64,000 bases of DNA. Origin: Anaerolineales bacterium (GTDB lineage: Bacteria; Chloroflexota; Anaerolineae; Anaerolineales; DRMV01). Under the pieces are notes generated by a model. That model was not told where the DNA came from and made no database searches. It saw only the letters and a list, made by a program, of their open reading frames with translations. Numbering within the stretch: position 1 is the stretch's first letter; every line of letters starts with the position of its first letter. The stretch is from the NCBI GenBank assembly GCA_027023425.1, contig JALVVL010000022.1, positions 48,210 to 112,209 on the forward strand, given 5' to 3'. Made by a program: the position numbers and the translations under genes. Shown in pieces: positions 2,970-63,963 of the stretch.

Positions 2970-3545
2970 CTTGACATCCTCTCCGCGATTGAACGGTTGA
3001 AACCGCAGATTTCGCAGAAAAAATCTGTGCTAATCTGTGTAATCTGTGGTTTTTATCCTTGGCGTCCTTTGTGCCCTTGGCGTCCTTGGCGTTACTATCC
3101 ACCGATTGACACAGATTTACACCGATTGGTTGTCTGAAACCACAGATTCCGCAGATTTCGCAGAAAAACTTCCACAGATCTCACAGGTTTACACCGATTG
3201 AAAGAAAACCACAGAGGACACAGAAATTTACAGAGAACACAGAAAAAAATCTGTGCTAATCTGTGTAATCTGTGGTTTGTTTTACCCTTGGCGTCCTTTG
3301 TGCCCTTGGCGTCCCTATCCACCGATTGACACAGATTTACACCGATTGGTTGTCTGAAACCACAGATTCCGCAGATTTCGCAGAAAAACTTCCACAGATC
3401 TCACAGGTTTACACCGATTGAAAGAAAACCACAGAGGACACAGAAGTTTACAGAGAACACAGAAAAAAATCTGTGCTAATCTGTGTAATCTGTGGTTTTT
3501 TCTTTCTTTGTTTCCTTTGCGTCTTTGCGTTACACTTGACATCCT
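2970..3545. repeat. Modular intergenic repeat block (ACACAGATT / GCCCTTGGCGTCC / ACCGATTG modules) with 220-bp tandem duplication
   Basis: 3095-3314 repeats at 3315-3500+ with only isolated differences (e.g. cagaaattt/cagaagttt). Confidence 0.9.
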
Positions 3546-8620: not shown

Positions 8621-10042
8621 CTAAACTGTCTTCTCTAACGCCGCGGCGGCCTTTTCAACCGCGCGCACTATCTTGTAGTAACCGGTGCAGCGGCAGAGGT
8701 TGCCCGTGAGCGCATTCTGAATCGTCTCACGGTCGGGATGCGGAAATTCTTCCAGCAATTTCACGGTAGTCATCACAAAGCCGGGGGTGCAGAAACCACA
8801 TTGCACCGCTCCGGCTTCCACAAACGCCTGCTGGACGGGGTGCAAGGCATCGTCTTGAGCCAAGCCTTCAACGGTGACAATATCGCGGCCATAGGCCGCT
8901 GGTGCGGGAATCATACAACTGAGCGCGGCCACCCCGTCTATAAACACCTCGCACGCACCGCACTCGCCTTCACCGCAGGCCTCCTTCGGGCCGGTAAAGC
9001 CGACTTCTTCGCGTAGCATCCGCAGCAGGCTTTTGCGAAAAGCACCCTTTACGCTCACCTCACGGCCGTTCACGCGGAAACGGATAGGCGTCTCTTCGGT
9101 GAGCACCACCGTTTCGGGCAATGGGTTGGGCTTGGGGCGGGCTTTGCCCCACAATAGCGGCGGGCGCTCAGGGAAATCTTCAGCCTCGCGCCCTTCGGCA
9201 ATGCGCAGCAGTGCGCGCTTGACCAACACGGCCACCATGCGGCGACGGTAATCGGCGGAAGCACGCAGGTCGTCAATCGGGCGAGCGGCTTCTGAGGCCA
9301 ACCTTCCGGCTTCGGCGGCAACGGCTTCATCCAAAGTTTTACCCTTCAAATAAGCCTCGGCCTCGGGCGCGCGGATGATGGTGGGTGCTACCGCGCCCAA
9401 GGTGATTTTGGCATCCTGCACCACACCATCCTCAAGGGTGAGCACCGCAGCGGCGCTGACCACCGAAATCACCTGCGCCTTCCGCAAGCCCATTTTGAGA
9501 AAAACGCCGCGCTGGTTGGGCTTCATCGCGGGGAAAGCAATCTCGGTCAGCATTTCATCTGGGCGCATCACGGTGCGACGCACGCCAGTGTAAAATTCGC
9601 TCAGCGGTACGGTGCGCTTGCCGCTCATCGAGCGCAAGGTGACCTGCGCGCCCAACGCCATCAGCGGCACGATGGTGTCGTTAGCCGGGGAGGCGGTGAC
9701 CAGGTTGCCCGCGATGGTGGCGCGGTTGCGGATTTGCGGCGAGCCCACGCCCCAACTGGCCTGCGCCAGCGGAAAGCCATATTTCCGCAAAACGGGCGAA
9801 ATTTCGGCTTCGCTATGAAGCACGTTTGGCCCAATTCGCACCCACCCATCCTCAAGCCTGATTTCATCAAGGCCCGGGATGCGCGTGGTGTCAACCAATA
9901 CTTCCACATTCGGGCGCACATTGCGCTGAAGTTCCAGCATCAGGTCGGTTGCCCCGGCCACAATGCGCGCCCGCTCGCCGTGCTCGGCGAGGGCTTTGAG
10001 AGCGTCTTCAAGTGATGCTGCAATGATGTAAGTATGCCACAT
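8621..10042 (-). CDS. Fused FAD-binding (CoxM-type) + 2Fe-2S (CoxS-type) subunit of molybdenum hydroxylase
   Basis: N-term GERARIVAGATDLMLELQ and RNRATIAGNLVTASPANDT (FAD); C-term CGEGECGACEVFIDG and CGFCTPGFVMTT...GNLCRCTGYYKIV (2 x 2Fe-2S). Confidence 0.92.
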   Translation of the reverse strand: MWHTYIIAASLEDALKALAEHGERARIVAGATDLMLELQRNVRPNVEVLVDTTRIPGLDEIRLEDGWVRIGPNVLHSEAEISPVLRKYGFPLAQASWGVGSPQIRNRATIAGNLVTASPANDTIVPLMALGAQVTLRSMSGKRTVPLSEFYTGVRRTVMRPDEMLTEIAFPAMKPNQRGVFLKMGLRKAQVISVVSAAAVLTLEDGVVQDAKITLGAVAPTIIRAPEAEAYLKGKTLDEAVAAEAGRLASEAARPIDDLRASADYRRRMVAVLVKRALLRIAEGREAEDFPERPPLLWGKARPKPNPLPETVVLTEETPIRFRVNGREVSVKGAFRKSLLRMLREEVGFTGPKEACGEGECGACEVFIDGVAALSCMIPAPAAYGRDIVTVEGLAQDDALHPVQQAFVEAGAVQCGFCTPGFVMTTVKLLEEFPHPDRETIQNALTGNLCRCTGYYKIVRAVEKAAAALEKTV

Positions 10043-10061
10043 ATCTAACCTCCAAAAGCCT

Positions 10062-10592
10062 TTACACAGGCCCTATATCGCTCAAAAGTTCTTCAAACGA
10101 AGCCCACACTCTTTTGCGACCCACACTTCGCCAGTGAATTTTCTTGCCGTTCCATTGCTGCACTGCACGACGGGGCGGCTTATCGTTCATCACTAACGCC
10201 ACTACCTTATGTTTCTTCAACCTGTCTTTCCCAGGCCACACCTCATGATGACGAGAACCTACGGGTTCATCACGGCAAAAATAGCAAATCGTATCGGTAA
10301 TCTGCTCAACGGCATTTTCGTCCGCGCCCTTTTTCAAATCCAGAAAGATCACATAGCACTCATCGCCATTGCAGCCGATGAGCACACCATCGCAGCGATG
10401 CGCACCCGAACCACCGCTCGCAGGACAGAGACAACGATCCTGAGGGCGAAAATAACCACCATCTAACAAATAACAAGCCACGTCCTCGCCGCCGATTACA
10501 AACCGAGCCCCGCTCTCTTGAAAGCGGCACGGCGCCTTTCTGGCCCCAGAAAAGGCTCGCGGATCGTAAGGCTTTACTCCGGTGCAGGGCAT
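10062..10592 (-). CDS. Putative PD-(D/E)XK-fold nuclease-like protein, partner of upstream ATPase
   Basis: ATG 10592 overlaps the ATPase stop (TGATG); motif arrangement E(GGEDVACYL) - D(CDGVLIG) - DxK(VIFLDLKKG) - Q(VEQITDTICYF). Confidence 0.55.
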   Translation of the reverse strand: MPCTGVKPYDPRAFSGARKAPCRFQESGARFVIGGEDVACYLLDGGYFRPQDRCLCPASGGSGAHRCDGVLIGCNGDECYVIFLDLKKGADENAVEQITDTICYFCRDEPVGSRHHEVWPGKDRLKKHKVVALVMNDKPPRRAVQQWNGKKIHWRSVGRKRVWASFEELLSDIGPV

Positions 10593-11890
10593 CAGGCTGT
10601 CTCCTCCGATGCCTCTAAGACCGCTTGAATGCTGTTGAAATACTTGTAAACCGTCCATTCTGCTTCCCGCAAGCGGTCTTCATTTACTTCCCCTTCCTCT
10701 GTCATCAACTTGCGGACACCGTCAAAGGCAACTTCATAGACAGCGACTTGCTCGCGGTGCAAGCGCGACTCCTCTGGCGGAAGGCGCAGTTTCTTTCCAA
10801 ATGCCGTATCTTTCCCTTTAACCGCCGAAGCCCGCAAAAGGGCGTTCAACGAGAACAAAAGCAGAGGAGAATGGGTAGTAAAGACGACACGGATGCCTTG
10901 ATTCACCAAATAAGCCAAAATGTGCAATACTTCCAACTGGGCGGTCGGATGCAGATGGACTTCCGGCTCTTCCACATAAATTACCGCCTCTTCTGCAGCA
11001 AGGCCGTGCCTACGCCACTCCAGCAGGCACATGGAAGCCAAAACCAATGGCCAAGCCTCCATTTGCCCGGAAGAAGCCATTTCCAAATCGTGGATGGTGC
11101 CATCAGGCAAACGCCATTTCCACACCTTGGGGCCACGAGGTGGAAGGTAAGCCTCCCCTCCCAACGCCTTAAACGCCCGTTTCCACACCCACTGAGCCTC
11201 GGCCGTAGCCGGCTTGCCGTCATCCCAGCCAATAAAAGTTTCCATTGCCAGATTTAGAGTTCTGGTAAAAGAACGCATTGTCAAAGGTAAAGAGGGAGAC
11301 TGAAGAATATCGGGAGCAGTGTTCAGAAAACGGGAATAGAAAGTGCGCTCAGCAGGAATGAACAAAGCCGGAAGAGGGCGTAGCCATCGCTCGCGCCACC
11401 CTATTTCTTCAGTGAGGCCATGCACCCATGTCAAAAACGATTTCTCTAAATGAGGCATATTCTGGGTTTGGTACACGCGGAACCCCATCGTTTCATAGTC
11501 TCGCCAAGGTTTGTCCCGCTGGTAGAGAATTTGAACGCCCTGCTTCACCAACGAATTGAAACCGCGGCGTTTATCTTGCACTTCCCCCCGACGCAGCCTA
11601 TCTAAAAGGGACTTCAACAGGCGGGAGGGGTCGGCCTCCTCCTCCCGGCTCACAAACTGAGCGGCCAGATATGGAAATGCACGTCCCAAAAACAGGAGTT
11701 GCATCAGCAACGACTTGCCACTCCCCTGAGGGCCGACAAAGACCGTCAGAGGCGCCAAATTCACCCGGACGCGCCCTTCTTCCCCAAGGTCAAAAGGTCC
11801 TAATTCCCCTGCCGGGTGCTTGGTGTTCGGCAGAGGGAGAATCTGCAGTCTCTCCATCGTCGCTTCCCCGTTTTCACGCTTAGACGCCAT
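10592..11890 (-). CDS. AAA/ABC-type ATPase (AAA_15/AAA_21, OLD-like ATPase without TOPRIM)
   Basis: VFVGPQGSGKSLLMQLLF Walker A, ASSGQMEAWPL signature, VIYVEEPEVHLHP Walker B, VVFTTHSPLLLFSLN H-loop; ATG 11890 with GGGAGA RBS. Confidence 0.85.
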   Translation of the reverse strand: MASKRENGEATMERLQILPLPNTKHPAGELGPFDLGEEGRVRVNLAPLTVFVGPQGSGKSLLMQLLFLGRAFPYLAAQFVSREEEADPSRLLKSLLDRLRRGEVQDKRRGFNSLVKQGVQILYQRDKPWRDYETMGFRVYQTQNMPHLEKSFLTWVHGLTEEIGWRERWLRPLPALFIPAERTFYSRFLNTAPDILQSPSLPLTMRSFTRTLNLAMETFIGWDDGKPATAEAQWVWKRAFKALGGEAYLPPRGPKVWKWRLPDGTIHDLEMASSGQMEAWPLVLASMCLLEWRRHGLAAEEAVIYVEEPEVHLHPTAQLEVLHILAYLVNQGIRVVFTTHSPLLLFSLNALLRASAVKGKDTAFGKKLRLPPEESRLHREQVAVYEVAFDGVRKLMTEEGEVNEDRLREAEWTVYKYFNSIQAVLEASEETA

Positions 11891-11903
11891 AAACGCATCT
11901 CCC

Positions 11904-13250
11904 TTATTCCAGCAAGCCCAGCACCACCGGCAGCAACTGCTTTTTGCGCGAAACCACACCTTCGGCCAAACGCGTGCCGTCGGGCAGGCGTGGGTAGGGC
12001 ATATCGTCAAGCACTTCAGGCGGGTTGGCAAGCACCAAGCGGCTGGAGCCGCGCACCACATCCGTCACCATCAAAATCGCAAAATCAAGCCCGCGCTTTT
12101 CGCGCAGGCGCTCTAAGGCCTCTTGAATTTCCTTTAGGTGCTCATCCAACTGCACCAAACTCGTAACCTCGGCTTGCGCAATGGCAAAATGATAGCCGCC
12201 CGCTTCGTAAACTTTCAAATCGGTGGAGACGACCTCATCGGGGTCGCGGCTGGCCAGCCCCGCACCCGCCGAAAGCAAGGCTTCGCCAAAGGACTGGATG
12301 GTTTCGCCTTCAAGCGGAGCGCCCATGATGAACGCCCAGCGCGCCAAGCGCTCCGCGGCTTGCCGGTCGCGCTCGGTGGTGGTGGGTGAAGTCAAAATCA
12401 GCGTGTCGGAAAGCAAACCAGCGAGCAACAAACCGGCAATTTCAGGCGGCGCGCTCAACCCCGCCTCCGCTATCCGCTCCGAAACCAAAGTGCTGGTGCT
12501 ACCCACCACATCCACAGTAAAGCGGATGGGCGTCTTGGTGTGCGGGTTGCCGAGGCGGTGGTGGTCTAAAACCTCAAGCAATTCGGCCTCTTCCAGTGCG
12601 CCGATGGCCTGCGCCGGTTCGTTGTGGTCAACCAAAACCACCTTCAGGCGCGGCGGGTTGAGCAGGTCGCGCTGGCGGCATACACCCTGATAGCGGCCTT
12701 TGTCGTCCACCACGATGAAGAAATTGTGTTCTTCGCGCAAAATGCGGTTGAGCGCGTCGCGGATGTGTGTTTCGGCGCGAAAACGCGGCACGGTTGTATC
12801 GCAAGCCTCGGCCGCAGGCCGCACGAGAAAATCGCAAATGCGCTGGTTTTCACCGTTTGGTGTTGGGCCAACCAGTCTGCCCAAAAAATCAAACAAACTA
12901 AGGCCGGTAATCAGGCCATAGGGCGTGCCGTCTTCGTTTACCACGGGCGCGACGCCGCCGGTGCGGTTGGCAATAGCCCATGCGTCGCGCAGGGGCTGGT
13001 TGGGCGTCACCGTATCCAAGCGACGAGAAACCGCGGCGAAGCGCGGCGAAGCGTCGGTCAGCAATTTGGGCGGTTTAATTCCCAGCCGTTCCAACGCCCA
13101 AGTGGTTTGAGGGTTTAGAGAGCCAGCGCGCGCCGCCACTGCATTCACCCCATCGCGCTCGCGCAGCAGCCAAGCATACCCCACAGCCGCGGCGACAGAA
13201 TCGGTGTCGGGGTTTACATGGCCGACAACATATACCGCTCCTTTTTCCAT
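11904..13250 (-). CDS. ppaC: Manganese-dependent inorganic pyrophosphatase with internal CBS domains
   Basis: VVGHVNPDTDSVAAAVGYAWLL (DHH family), LVDHNEPAQAI, EVLDHHRLGN, CBS-like insert (TVTPNQPLRDAWAIA...), DHHA2-like C-term. Confidence 0.9.
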   Translation of the reverse strand: MEKGAVYVVGHVNPDTDSVAAAVGYAWLLRERDGVNAVAARAGSLNPQTTWALERLGIKPPKLLTDASPRFAAVSRRLDTVTPNQPLRDAWAIANRTGGVAPVVNEDGTPYGLITGLSLFDFLGRLVGPTPNGENQRICDFLVRPAAEACDTTVPRFRAETHIRDALNRILREEHNFFIVVDDKGRYQGVCRQRDLLNPPRLKVVLVDHNEPAQAIGALEEAELLEVLDHHRLGNPHTKTPIRFTVDVVGSTSTLVSERIAEAGLSAPPEIAGLLLAGLLSDTLILTSPTTTERDRQAAERLARWAFIMGAPLEGETIQSFGEALLSAGAGLASRDPDEVVSTDLKVYEAGGYHFAIAQAEVTSLVQLDEHLKEIQEALERLREKRGLDFAILMVTDVVRGSSRLVLANPPEVLDDMPYPRLPDGTRLAEGVVSRKKQLLPVVLGLLE

Positions 13251-13319
13251 CTCAAAACTCCTGTGGGGAAAGAGAAACGTCATTCCAATAAAATTCTACC
13301 ACGCCGGTCAAATGAACAT

Positions 13320-19617: not shown

Positions 19618-19692
19618 TTTTTGGGGCTCACCCTTCTCCAAAAGTCGCCGTAGGGCGACTTCGCAAGCAGTAGGTGCAGTTTCAACTGCCGC
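19618..19692 (-). repeat. Dispersed hairpin repeat, family B (copy 1)
   Basis: Reverse complement gives GGCAGTTGAAACTGCACCTACTGCTTGCGAAGTCGCCCTACGGCGACTTTTGGAGAAGGGTGAGCCCCAAAA, matching the copy at 30384. Confidence 0.8.
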
Positions 19693-19695
19693 TGG

Positions 19696-19904
19696 AAACC
19701 ACAGAAGACACAGAAAAGCCACAGAAAACTCAGGAATTTTCTCTTGGCGCCCTTCGTGCCCTTGGCGGCCTTGGCGTTCCTATCCACCAATTGACACAGA
19801 TTTACACCAATTGAAGAAAAAACACAGAAGACACAGAAACCTCACAGAAAACACAGAATTTTGTGTTCTCTGTGCCCATCTGTGGAATCTGTGGTTTTCC
19901 TTTT
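19696..19904. repeat. Modular ACACAG/CCACAGA intergenic repeat block
   Basis: accacagaagacacagaaaagccacagaaaac...tccaccaattgacacagatttacaccaattg...tctgtggaatctgtggttttc. Confidence 0.85.
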
Positions 19905-19905
19905 G

Positions 19906-21216
19906 TCAGATGTAATTCAGTTCCTTCGCCTGATGGCGGAGTTCGTCGCGGAAATCGGGATGTGCGATGTTGATGAGCGCGTGGGCGCGCTGGCGGATGG
20001 ATTTGCCGTAAAGGTTGGCTACGCCGTATTCCGTTACCACATAGCGGACATGGTTGCGCGTGGTAACAACGCCTGCGCCGCGCTTGAGCATGGCGACAAT
20101 GCGGCTGACGCGCGTGCCGTCGCGTAGGGTGGTCGTGCTCGGCAGGGCAATGATGGGCACCCCGCCTTTAGAACGGGAAGCGCCGTAGATGAAATCCAAC
20201 TGCCCACCTACGCCGCTGTAAAGTTTCGGCCCAATGCTGTCGGCGCACACTTGCCCCGTCAGGTCAACCTCAATCGCGGAATTTATCGCCACCATCCGCT
20301 CGTTTTGGGCAATCACAAACGGGTCGTTGACGTATTCGGTCGGGTGGAGTTCAATCATCGGGTTGTTATCCACCCAGTCATAAAGTTTTTGCGAGCCCAA
20401 GATGAAGCCGGCGATGATTTTGCCGCGGTGCAAAGTCTTGCGCGCGCCGGTCAGCACCCCGCGCTCCACCAAATCCATCACGCCATCCGAGAAAAGTTCG
20501 GTGTGCACGCCGAGGTCTTTCTTGTCGTGCAAATAGCGGAGCACCGCGTCGGGGATTGCGCCGATGCCCATTTGCATTGTCGCCCCGTCGGGGATGAGGT
20601 CGGCGATGTTTGAGGCTATCTTTTCCACCACCTGCGGGTCGCCCTTTGCACCCATGACCATCTCGGCGATTGGATAATTCACGGGCACAATGTAGTCCAA
20701 TCGGCTGACATGGATGAAAGAATCGCCCAAGGTGCGCGGCATTTGCTCATTGATTTCGGCGATGATGATTTTGGAAGACTCGGCCGGGGTTTTGGTAAGC
20801 CCAACCTCCACGCCAAAACTGCAAAAGCCGTGCTCATCAGGCGGCGAAAGGTGAACGAGCGCCACATCCAAAGGCAAAATGCCGTTTTTGAAGAGCAGCG
20901 GAAATTCAGAAAGGAAAACCGGCGTGAAGTCGGCTCGCCCTTCTTGCACAGCCTTGCGGATGTTGGCGCTGATGAACATGGTGTTGACGCGCAGGTGCCC
21001 TTCCATCTCAGGAGAAACATACTCGGCTGGCCCAACGGTGAGCGCTTGATCAATTTCCACATTTTCCAGTTCCGGGGCGCGCTTCACCAGCGCCTTGAGG
21101 AGCACCTGCGGCGTAGAGCAGTTACCCGTCAGGAAGACGCGCTGATTTGATTTGATCACACTTATCGCTTCTTCTGCGCTGACAATGCGCGAGCGGTAAA
21201 TTTTTTGCCAATCCAT
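19906..21216 (-). CDS. Acetyl-CoA hydrolase/CoA-transferase family (4-hydroxybutyrate/butyrate:acetate CoA-transferase-like)
   Basis: MQMGIGAIPDAVL, AINSAIEVDLTGQVCADSIG, YSGVGGQLDFIYGASRSKGG. Confidence 0.92.
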   Translation of the reverse strand: MDWQKIYRSRIVSAEEAISVIKSNQRVFLTGNCSTPQVLLKALVKRAPELENVEIDQALTVGPAEYVSPEMEGHLRVNTMFISANIRKAVQEGRADFTPVFLSEFPLLFKNGILPLDVALVHLSPPDEHGFCSFGVEVGLTKTPAESSKIIIAEINEQMPRTLGDSFIHVSRLDYIVPVNYPIAEMVMGAKGDPQVVEKIASNIADLIPDGATMQMGIGAIPDAVLRYLHDKKDLGVHTELFSDGVMDLVERGVLTGARKTLHRGKIIAGFILGSQKLYDWVDNNPMIELHPTEYVNDPFVIAQNERMVAINSAIEVDLTGQVCADSIGPKLYSGVGGQLDFIYGASRSKGGVPIIALPSTTTLRDGTRVSRIVAMLKRGAGVVTTRNHVRYVVTEYGVANLYGKSIRQRAHALINIAHPDFRDELRHQAKELNYI

Positions 21217-27257: not shown

Positions 27258-27660
27258 AGATTAACGCAGAGACACAGAGGAAACAGAGGCGCAGAGGAAC
27301 GCAGAGACGCCAAGGGCGCAAAGAGAAAACCACAGATTACACAGATTAGCACAGATGAGAAGATTAGCGATTTAGGATTTGCGGAAGGACGCCAAGGTCG
27401 CCAAGGGCACGAAGGACGCCAAGAAAAAATTTCTGTGTCTTCTGTGGTTTTCTCCTTCAATCGGTGTAAATCTGTGTCAATCGGTGGATAACCACGCCAA
27501 GGGCGCCAAGGGCACAAAGGACGCCAAGAAAAAAGTTTTTCTGTGTTTTCTGTAAATTTCTGTGTCCTCTGTGGTTTTCTCCTTCAATCGGTGTAAATCT
27601 GTGGTTTTTACTTCAACTTTACGCCCCAACAGCCTAACGACCCAACTACCAACGTTCCTC
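27258..27660. repeat. Modular intergenic repeat block
   Basis: cgcagagacgccaagggcgca; accacagattacacagattagcacagat; gccaaggtcgccaagggcacgaaggacgccaag; ttcaatcggtgtaaatctgtgtcaatcggtgg. Confidence 0.9.
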
Positions 27661-33384: not shown

Positions 33385-33530
33385 TACGCCAAGGATGCCA
33401 AGGTTAACGCAGAGGCGCAGAGAAGCGCAAAGAACGCAAAGAAAAATTTCTGTGGTGTTTCTGTGTCTTCTGTGTTTTTTTCTTCAATCGGTGTAAATCT
33501 GTGCCAATCTGTGGATTGGAGATCAAATCT
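33385..33530. repeat. Modular intergenic repeat block between tRNA-Gly and tRNA-Cys
   Basis: gccaaggatgccaaggttaacgcagaggcgcagagaagcgcaaagaacgcaaag...ttcaatcggtgtaaatctgtgccaatctgtgg. Confidence 0.85.
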
Positions 33531-40144: not shown

Positions 40145-40530
40145 GAAATAGGCCACAGAGGACGCAGAGGAAGCAAAGAGCGCAAAGAGATTGACGCCAA
40201 GAGCGCCAAGGATAAAAACCACAGATTACGCCGATTAGCACAGATGAGAGGATTAGCGATTTAGGATTTGCGGAAGGACGCCAAGGGCGCCAAGGACGCG
40301 AAGGACGCCAAGAGGTTAACGCAGAGGCGCAGAGGTTAACGCAAAGGGCGCAAAGAAAAATTTTCTGTGTTCTCTGTAAATTTCTGTGTCTTCTGTGGTT
40401 TTCTTCTTAAATCGGTGTAAATCGGTGGACAAAACCACAGATTACACAGATTAGCACAGATTTTTTCTGCGGAATCTGCGGTTTATCCCAAACTCAATCG
40501 GCGCAAATCTGCGTAAATCGGTGGATGGTA
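40145..40530. repeat. Modular intergenic repeat block
   Basis: gccaagagcgccaaggataaaaaccacagattacgccgattagcacagatgag...accacagattacacagattagcacagattttttctgcggaatctgcgg. Confidence 0.9.
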
Positions 40531-40587
40531 ATGCCAAGGCTGAACAGTTACAACATCGTAATATTTCAGGGAAATGTAGTTGCCTTA

Positions 40588-47914: not shown

Positions 47915-49297
47915 ATGTCCACACTCCTCATCCGCAACGCCGAAATTTTAGTGACGATGGACGATGCCCACCGGGAAATTCCCAACGGCGGCATGTTCAT
48001 CCGCGACGGTTTCATTGAACAAGTAGGCCCTACGGCCGAACTGCCTTCTACCGCCGACGAAATCCTTGACCTGAGCGGGCACATCGTGTTGCCCGGCCTG
48101 ATCAACACCCACCACCACTTTTACCAAACCCTGACCCGCGTCATCCCCGCGGCGCAGGATGCCAACCTCTTCCACTGGCTGACTACCCTCTACCCCATTT
48201 GGGCGCGCATCACCCCGCCCGAATTCCGCATTGCCACCAAAACCGCGCTTTCCGAACTGGCGCTTTCGGGCTGCACCACCGCCTTTGACCACTGGTATCT
48301 CTTCCCCAACGGTGCGCGGCTGGATGACGAAATAGAAGCCGCGCAGGAAGTCGGCCTGCGGCTGCACGCTTCGCGCGGCTCCATGAGCCTGGGCGAGAGC
48401 AAAGGCGGCCTGCCGCCCGACAGCGTGGTGGAAGACGAGGATTTCATCCTCAAAGACTCCCAGCGGCTGATTGAGCAATACCACGATCCCAACCCCGGCT
48501 CGTTCCTGCAAATCGTGCTCGCGCCGTGCTCGCCTTTCAGCGTGACTGCCGACCTGATGCGGGAAAGCGCCAAACTGGCGCGCGAATACGGCGTGCGCCT
48601 GCACACCCATCTCGCCGAAACCGAGGACGAGGAAATTTTCTGCATTGAAAAATTCGGCAAAAAGCCCGTGGCCTACATGGAAGAACTGGGCTGGATTGGC
48701 CCCGATGTGTGGTTTGCCCACAGCATCCACGTCAACGATGAGGAAATCCGGCTTTACGCGGAACACGGCGTGGGGGTGGCGCACTGCCCGGCTTCCAACA
48801 TGCGCTTGGGCTCTGGCATTGCGCCGATTTACGAAATGCTGATGGCGGGCGTGCCGGTGGGCTTGGGCGTGGACGGCTCGGCGAGCAACGACGGCTCGCA
48901 CCTGCTGGAGGAAACCCGTCTGGCGATGCTGTTGGCGCGGGTGCGCTCAGGCGTGCTGGGCTTTTCCCGCAGCGGCTCGGGCGCGCCGCCGCTGCTGACC
49001 GCGCGGCAGGCGTTAGAAATGGCAACCCGCGGCGGCGCGCGGGTGCTGGGCCGGGACGACATCGGCCAACTCGCGCCGGGCAAAGCCGCTGACTTCTTCG
49101 CCGTCAATCTCAACCGCTTGGACTATGCCGGCGCGCTGCACGACCCGGTGGCCGCGTTGGTTTTCTGCGCGCCCGTGCGCGCTGATTACACCGTGGTTGG
49201 TGGCAAATTCGTGGTGAAAGAAGGCCAACTCACCACCGTGGACTTGCCAGCGCTGATTGAAGCCCACAATCAAGCCGCCCGCCGCATCGCCGGGTAA
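47915..49297 (+). CDS. Amidohydrolase, 8-oxoguanine deaminase / ATZ-TRZ family-like
   Basis: GLINTHHHFYQTLTRVIPAAQDANLFHWLTTLYPIWA, LHTHLAETEDEE, FAHSIHVNDEEI, GVGVAHCPASNMRLGSGIAP, LGVDGSASNDGSHLLEETR. Confidence 0.9.
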   Translation: MSTLLIRNAEILVTMDDAHREIPNGGMFIRDGFIEQVGPTAELPSTADEILDLSGHIVLPGLINTHHHFYQTLTRVIPAAQDANLFHWLTTLYPIWARITPPEFRIATKTALSELALSGCTTAFDHWYLFPNGARLDDEIEAAQEVGLRLHASRGSMSLGESKGGLPPDSVVEDEDFILKDSQRLIEQYHDPNPGSFLQIVLAPCSPFSVTADLMRESAKLAREYGVRLHTHLAETEDEEIFCIEKFGKKPVAYMEELGWIGPDVWFAHSIHVNDEEIRLYAEHGVGVAHCPASNMRLGSGIAPIYEMLMAGVPVGLGVDGSASNDGSHLLEETRLAMLLARVRSGVLGFSRSGSGAPPLLTARQALEMATRGGARVLGRDDIGQLAPGKAADFFAVNLNRLDYAGALHDPVAALVFCAPVRADYTVVGGKFVVKEGQLTTVDLPALIEAHNQAARRIAG

Positions 49298-49304
49298 AAC
49301 AAAA

Positions 49305-49740
49305 CCACAGATTACGCAGATTGGCACAGAGGTTAACGCCAAGGTCGCCAAGGACACAGAGGACGCCAAGAAAGTAACGCAGAGGCGCAGAGAAAGCAGA
49401 GGCGCAGAGGACGCAAAGAAAAAACCACAGATTACACAGATTAGCACAGATTTTTTCTGCGGAATCTGCGAAATCTGCGGTTTCAACTATCCAATCGGTG
49501 TAAATCTGTGTCAATCGGTGGATGGTAACGCAGAGGCGCAGAGAAACGCAAAGGACGCAAAGAAAAAATTTCTGTGTTTTCCCGCTCTACCCACGACGCA
49601 ACGACCTAATGACTCAACGACCTAACGACCCAATCCCTCAGTACCTCAATTCCTCTCTCTCTTTCTGTGCTCTCTGTAAATTTCTGTGCCTTCTGTGGTT
49701 TTCTTACTCAATCGGTGTAAATCAGTGTCAATCTGTGGAC
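49305..49740. repeat. Modular intergenic repeat block including an 8-nt-period segment
   Basis: accacagattacgcagattggcacag; gccaaggtcgccaagga; cgcagaggcgcagag; acgcaacg-acctaatg-actcaacg-acctaacg-acccaatc at about 49596-49635. Confidence 0.9.
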
Positions 49741-49760
49741 ATTATCACGCGGAGGTCGTC

Positions 49761-55019: not shown

Positions 55020-55216
55020 GTTAGGCGTTGAGTCGTTGAGTCGTTAGGGCGTTGCGTCGTGGGTGGAGCAGAAAAACCACAGAGGACACAGAAATTTTCT
55101 CTTGGCGTCCTTCGTGTCCTTGGCGCCCTTGGCGTTAACCTCTGTGCTAATCTGTGTAATCTGTGGTTTTTTCTTTGCGTCCTCTGCTCCTCTGCTTTCT
55201 CTGCGTCTCTGCGTTA
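55020..55216. repeat. Modular intergenic repeat block with 8-nt-period CGTTGAGT segment
   Basis: cgttaggcgttgagtcgttgagtcgttagggcgttgcgtcg; cttggcgtccttcgtgtccttggcgccc; ctgtgctaatctgtgtaatctgtggt. Confidence 0.88.
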
Positions 55217-60404: not shown

Positions 60405-60740
60405 ACCGATTGAAAAAAACCACAGAAGACACAGAACCACCACAGAAAGCACAGAAATTTTTCCTTGGCGACCTTGGCATTCTTATCCACCGATTGACAC
60501 AGATTTACACCGATTGAGAAACACAGAAATTTACAGAGAACACAGAATTTTTTTCTTTGCGCCTCTGCGTTTCTCTGCGCCTTTGTTTCCTCTGCGTCTT
60601 TGTGTTATCTTGGCGCCCTTTGTGCCCTTGGCGACCTTGGCGTTAACCGTTTTGCGCTCTCTGCGTCTCTGTTTTCTCTGCGTCTCTGCGTTACCTCCTT
60701 GGCGACCTTGGCGTTAATCTGCGTAATCTGTGGTTTTTAT
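60405..60740. repeat. Modular intergenic repeat block
   Basis: accacagaagacacagaaccaccacagaaagcacagaaat; tccaccgattgacacagatttacaccgattg; tctgcgtctctgcgtta; ccttggcgaccttggcg. Confidence 0.9.
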
Positions 60741-63548: not shown

Positions 63549-63579
63549 CCGCGCCGCCGCGGTTGACGCCAAAATCACC

Positions 63580-63880
63580 AAGAGAGAACCACAGATTACA
63601 CAGAAAAAACCACAGATTAGCGCAGATTTTTTCTGTGTTCTCTGCAAATTTCCGTGTTTTCTGTGTTTTCCCGCTCTACCTACGACGCAACAATCCAACG
63701 ACTCAACGACTCAACAACTCAACGACCTAACGACCTAACCACCTAACCACCTAACCACCTAACGACTCAACGCCCCAATCCCTCAATACCTCAATCCCTT
63801 TCCCTTTCTGTGTTCTCTGTAAATTTCTGTGTCTTCTGTGGTTTCAATCATCCAATCAGTGTAAATCTGTGTCAATAGTA
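63580..63880. repeat. Modular intergenic repeat block with perfect-phase 8-nt array
   Basis: accacagattacacagaaaaaaccacagattagcgcagatttttt; nine consecutive 8-mers ACYYAACN at 63701-63772. Confidence 0.92.
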
Positions 63881-63896
63881 TGATAAAGACAGGGGG

Positions 63897-63963
63897 CGGG
63901 TGCGGCAGGTCGGTAGTGAAATGGTCCTTTGAGACCGGCACAGAGTGAAGGCCGCCGCACCCG
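63897..63963 (+). ncRNA. Possible structured RNA element or long-loop terminator (unassigned)
   Basis: 10-bp stem CGGGTGCGGC / GCCGCACCCG closing about 47 nt, which contain GGTC-ctttga-GACC, followed by TTTT. Confidence 0.35.

Follow-up and report, generated by a model that had tools for sequence, protein, structure and literature searches.

The window, a 64,000-nt stretch of a Chloroflexota chromosome, contained two overlapping genes on the minus strand. The first (10592..11890) encoded an ABC/OLD-like ATPase of 432 aa, a putative sensor subunit, and the second (10062..10592) a predicted nuclease effector of 176 aa belonging to the PD-(D/E)XK family. The positions in the initial annotation were exact, with the ATPase running from its ATG at 11890 to its TGA at 10594–10592 and the effector from its ATG at 10592 to its stop at 10062. 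The overlap it described was also present: ATPase TGA and effector ATG shared the sequence TGATG (10590..10594, minus strand), consistent with translational coupling. A 13-nt gap containing GGGAG (11891..11903, minus strand) separated the ATPase start from the stop of a gene for a DHH/DHHA2/CBS protein, probably a manganese-dependent inorganic pyrophosphatase (ppaC-like; 11904..13283, minus strand). On the other side, 19 nt (10043..10061, minus strand) lay between the effector and a molybdopterin-dehydrogenase gene encoding the FAD-binding/[2Fe-2S] subunit of a xanthine/CO dehydrogenase-type enzyme (8621..10042, minus strand). Since the pair begins 13 nt after ppaC, with no obvious promoter space of its own, it is probably transcribed by read-through from ppaC.

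The ATPase matched Pfam AAA_21 (1.6e-15) and AAA_15 (3.3e-15). The Walker A, signature, Walker B and H-loop motifs originally read from the window were all found (GPQGSGKS, K59; SSGQ, Q276; VIYVEEPE, E308; TTHS, H340) and were kept in full-length homologues, and the PAxR arginine of the ATPase family was present as PAER (R182). With Pfam and PADLOC profiles, no TOPRIM domain was found in the ATPase or its partner, which upheld the claim of an OLD-like ATPase without TOPRIM.

Protein searches detected the same pair, 91% identical and with the same flanks, in genome G008; the pair found in G006 was diverged, with 49% identity for the ATPase and 32% for the effector. Of 199 genomes searched across the class, 8 had the ATPase, and some of these contained between two and four divergent copies. 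All intact copies were directly followed by a small gene, overlapping or a few bases apart; the incomplete loci L010, L016 and L017, shortened by truncation or by the end of a contig, were set apart from these. In a wider scan of species-representative genomes and viral contigs, the ATPase score reached at least 50 at 91 additional loci. An effector-profile match (E ≤ 0.01) was obtained at 39 of them, and in 39/39 the matching ORF, among about 41 per locus, was the one directly downstream of the ATPase, which exceeds chance expectation. Co-occurrence of the two genes was thus confirmed at every intact homologue examined. Both genes were under purifying selection (dN/dS 0.165 and 0.097).

Some loci departed from this layout. 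At L010 / L023:11-523 and at L016:1363-2871, the pair has decayed, apparently through a deletion that took away the ATPase end and most of the effector and left the last effector residues in frame. Three related ATPases (L050, L070 and L097) had a downstream partner resembling a PIN-type protein (RRLVIDTSVARSA...) rather than PD-(D/E)XK, which suggests effector swapping in the wider family. At L011:946-3085, a diverged pair was followed by an overlapping third gene whose product resembled, by eye only, a nucleoside 2-deoxyribosyltransferase-type protein.

Relationship to known two-gene systems

Two validated systems have the architecture of the window pair. WonAB of V. cholerae, reported in 2025 from the WASA-1 prophage, consists of an OLD-ABC ATPase and a 16.1 kDa PD-(D/E)xK nuclease, and its defence is abolished by mutation of WonA K34, R182, E300 or H333 or of WonB K71 (PMC12137116). 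PD-T4-4 of E. coli, reported in 2022, is likewise a two-gene system of an ATPase and a PD-(D/E)XK nuclease (PMC9519451). The accessions listed in PMC12137116 are AWB73975.1 for WonA, AWB73976.1 for WonB, and RCO57999.1 and RCO57988.1 for PD-T4-4. The WonAB authors relate their system to PD-T4-4 and to the 'OLD-ABC ATPase + novel REase' operons of Krishnan et al. 2020, which, as cited there, encompass WonAB homologues and, as described there, have the same layout and predicted enzyme classes as the window pair (PMC12137116). In both WonAB and the window pair, an ABC/OLD ATPase that lacks TOPRIM precedes a small PD-(D/E)xK nuclease, and the motifs are the same, including the PAxR arginine. The two pairs differ in that the window ATPase belongs to a sister clade of its own and is encoded in a Chloroflexota chromosome rather than a prophage, and in that WonB has about 140 aa, whereas the window effector has 176 aa, D-x-K and a GxxHH module.

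The PADLOC profiles gave a similar picture. The ATPase matched PDC-M56A (1e-20), PD-T4-4_A (1.6e-15) and PDC-M29A (4.5e-15), and the effector weakly matched PDC-M47B (3e-4) and PDC-M29B (5e-4); the effector of L003, the nearest diverged pair, matched PDC-M47B (6e-8) and PD-T4-4_B (7.5e-5). Both window subunits were therefore nearest to PD-T4-4 and to the PADLOC-DB 2023 candidates PDC-M29, PDC-M47 and PDC-M56, and the pairing, which the initial annotation had considered possibly new, belongs to an architecture already described for WonAB and PD-T4-4 and listed in PADLOC. Given the weak effector E-values, current PADLOC models probably miss or mislabel the window clade.

Septu (PtuA/PtuB), PARIS (AriA/AriB) and Gabija (GajA/GajB) have a related ATPase fold and the same sensor–effector logic, but their effectors are HNH, TOPRIM, or TOPRIM with a UvrD helicase, and none is a separate PD-(D/E)XK protein. 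Septu was ruled out because the window partner had no Pfam or PADLOC match to HNH/PtuB, and PARIS and Gabija because no TOPRIM effector or domain (AriB, GajA) was found.

In the ATPase phylogeny, the window was placed in a clade of 14 members (support 100/99), almost all from Anaerolineae and one from Myxococcota. This clade was grouped with a WonA-like clade (97/88), apart from a more distant PD-T4-4/PDC-M47-like clade containing the ATPases nearest PD-T4-4_A. The WonA-like clade included PDC-M29A and a relative on a viral contig (L163), whose ATPase residues K33, R181, E301 and H336 and effector K71 (145 aa) nearly match the WonA/WonB numbering; the branch was taken as WonA-like from this residue register only. 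A profile–profile alignment of the window ATPase family with this branch covered nearly the whole length (372 columns, probability 100, E 2e-50), and K59, R182, E308 and H340 of the window fell in the same columns as the four L163 residues. The window ATPases thus appear to be a sister group of the WonA-like ATPases, as identified by residue register, and not part of them, which argues against WonAB in the strict sense.

In the 14-member clade, every effector carried the motif G-x(1-3)-HH (G112-x-x-H115-H116, with H128, in the window). The motif was missing from the sister pair L011/L056 and from 83 other scanned downstream ORFs. Judging from these sequence comparisons, what is new is the branch itself: a well-supported, almost purely Anaerolineae clade with GxxHH effectors that diverges within a known two-gene anti-phage family.

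Effector motifs and predicted fold

The window effector had no match in Pfam, NCBIfam or PHROGs or among phage or plasmid records, and a PDB sequence search with two effector profiles returned none. In an alignment of 34 divergent effectors, D68 was invariant and E/D85, K87 and Q97 were nearly invariant, so that the D, DxK and Q initially read as PD-(D/E)XK motifs (D68, D85-x-K87, Q97) were borne out. The proposed upstream acidic residue E36 (GGEDV) was not conserved; this role falls to D44 (LDG), which aligned with the invariant VDG of the compact, WonB-like effector branch. Among the clustered cysteines that had been pointed out, C67 (CD) alone recurred in distant relatives, and the cluster is therefore no family feature. 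The invariants of the compact branch include D41, D52, E66-L-K68 and Q78, and a profile–profile comparison over the catalytic core linked this branch to the window effectors (probability 96.9, E 1.8e-10). The catalytic pair of the window effector is D-x-K, not E-x-K, which we counted against our best explanation.

An AlphaFold2 model of the compact L163 effector had a pLDDT of 93. Its best Foldseek matches in the PDB were BamHI, Mus81-Eme1, EcoT38I, PaqCI, FokI and Cap4, all PD-(D/E)XK enzymes; none reached E 0.001, so the assignment draws on the hits agreeing with one another. For the window effector itself, the model was of moderate quality (pLDDT 75.6) with the expected strand and helix order. 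Its Foldseek search gave no significant match and was dominated by metallo-beta-lactamases (TM about 0.2), a likeness judged to be noise, with FokI ranked 30th; the fold of the window effector is therefore assigned by homology. Accordingly, the initial proposal of a PD-(D/E)XK-type partner stood with respect to the conserved motifs and the fold modelled for the L163 relative, but found no match of its own in the window model. The window effector belongs to a family with a modelled PD-(D/E)XK fold.

Occupied and empty insertion sites

The pair was found at an identical site in genomes G000 and G008. Five relatives (G001, G016, G011, G005 and G017) had an empty site, with the two flanking genes adjacent and 56–95 nt between them; the gaps of 13 and 19 nt thus mark the left and right boundaries of the insertion. 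G001, of the same genus, lacked the pair while its flank proteins were 97–98% identical, and the left flanks of G016 and G008 were 97.1% identical with the pair in G008 only. Between G000 and G008, DNA identity was 90.7% for the pair and 84.0% and 86.8% for the flanks, and dS was 0.26 and 0.43 for the pair genes and 0.74 and 0.55 for the flanks. The G+C content of the cassette was 0.53, compared to 0.60 in the neighbours. An accessory insertion between housekeeping genes, as first suggested, agreed with the clean empty sites and with the lower dS of the pair, and the best reading is that recombination exchanged the cassette at a fixed site. The two neighbours of the pair are housekeeping genes and no further defence genes adjoined it, which counts against a defence role.

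At the same ppaC–dehydrogenase site, G004 (contig 100, L229:3238-3831) carried a different insert of 600 nt. It contained a HepT-like (HEPN toxin) fragment below the Pfam cut-off and possibly an MNT-like one; toxin or defence modules may thus share this site as a small hotspot. The window also contained many intergenic composite repeats, at 3000-3535, 19640-19935, 27280-27630, 33400-33530, 40186-40540, 49270-49755, 55027-55216, 60417-60700 and 63556-63897, assembled in either orientation from short phrases like AACCACAGATTACACAGATTAGCACAGAT and CAATCGGTGTAAATCTGTGTCAATC.

Proposed function and significance

The pair is likely a two-gene anti-phage system of the OLD-ABC ATPase and PD-(D/E)XK nuclease family that would work like WonAB and PD-T4-4 in a separate Chloroflexota branch. 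The initial reading as a defence-type cassette was counted as right. As suggested by its ABC motifs, the ATPase would dimerise on ATP and act as the sensor, and it may hold or stabilise the small nuclease. Upon a phage-derived trigger, the ATPase would license the nuclease to cleave a nucleic acid that the infected cell cannot do without, and growth and phage production would stop (abortive infection). By analogy with WonB, for which tRNA or rRNA cleavage has been proposed (PMC12137116), tRNA or rRNA would be a more probable target than chromosomal DNA.

Alternatively, the effector might degrade DNA of the phage and/or the host chromosome, as in Gabija or NucC-type systems, and the ATPase would then serve as its DNA sensor. 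The closest folds to the L163 effector model are DNA restriction enzymes, and OLD-family ATPases have been linked to DNA ends in other systems. We consider this possible but distinctly the less probable option, as WonAB activation blocked translation and left genomic DNA intact (PMC12137116). Since the window effector is only distantly related to WonB and contains the additional GxxHH module, its substrate could differ from that of WonB. A bolder proposal is that the Anaerolineae clade has a function distinct from the rest of the family. Its GxxHH...H module would form a second metal or catalytic site and confer a new substrate (e.g., one specific tRNA or a nucleic acid with modifications), and homologous recombination would carry the cassettes into read-through sites next to housekeeping genes, not into defence islands; we regard this proposal as rather unlikely.

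Two overlapping genes in an accessory cassette, with a HepT-like fragment in the G004 insert at the same site, would also suit a toxin–antitoxin module, an addictive element with a nuclease toxin and an ATPase antitoxin. The ATPase gene precedes the nuclease gene and its motifs are intact, and WonAB toxicity requires the ATPase (PMC12137116), which disfavours simple neutralisation; such a module is improbable here. A housekeeping pair for nucleic-acid repair or RNA processing, co-transcribed with ppaC, would fit the short distances to both neighbours and the other Anaerolineae pairs that likewise adjoin housekeeping genes. Most relatives lack the pair and have a clean empty site, its presence in the class is uneven, the effectors are extremely divergent, several divergent copies can occur per genome, and truncated copies exist, which makes a housekeeping role very improbable.

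As a putative anti-phage system, the pair would extend a recently validated sensor–nuclease family to Chloroflexota, in a branch that is scarcely picked up by current defence-finding profiles and is set apart by a conserved, testable GxxHH motif. The comparison of occupied and empty sites shows gain and loss of such cassettes at one fixed spot between housekeeping genes, where searches based on defence islands would miss them.
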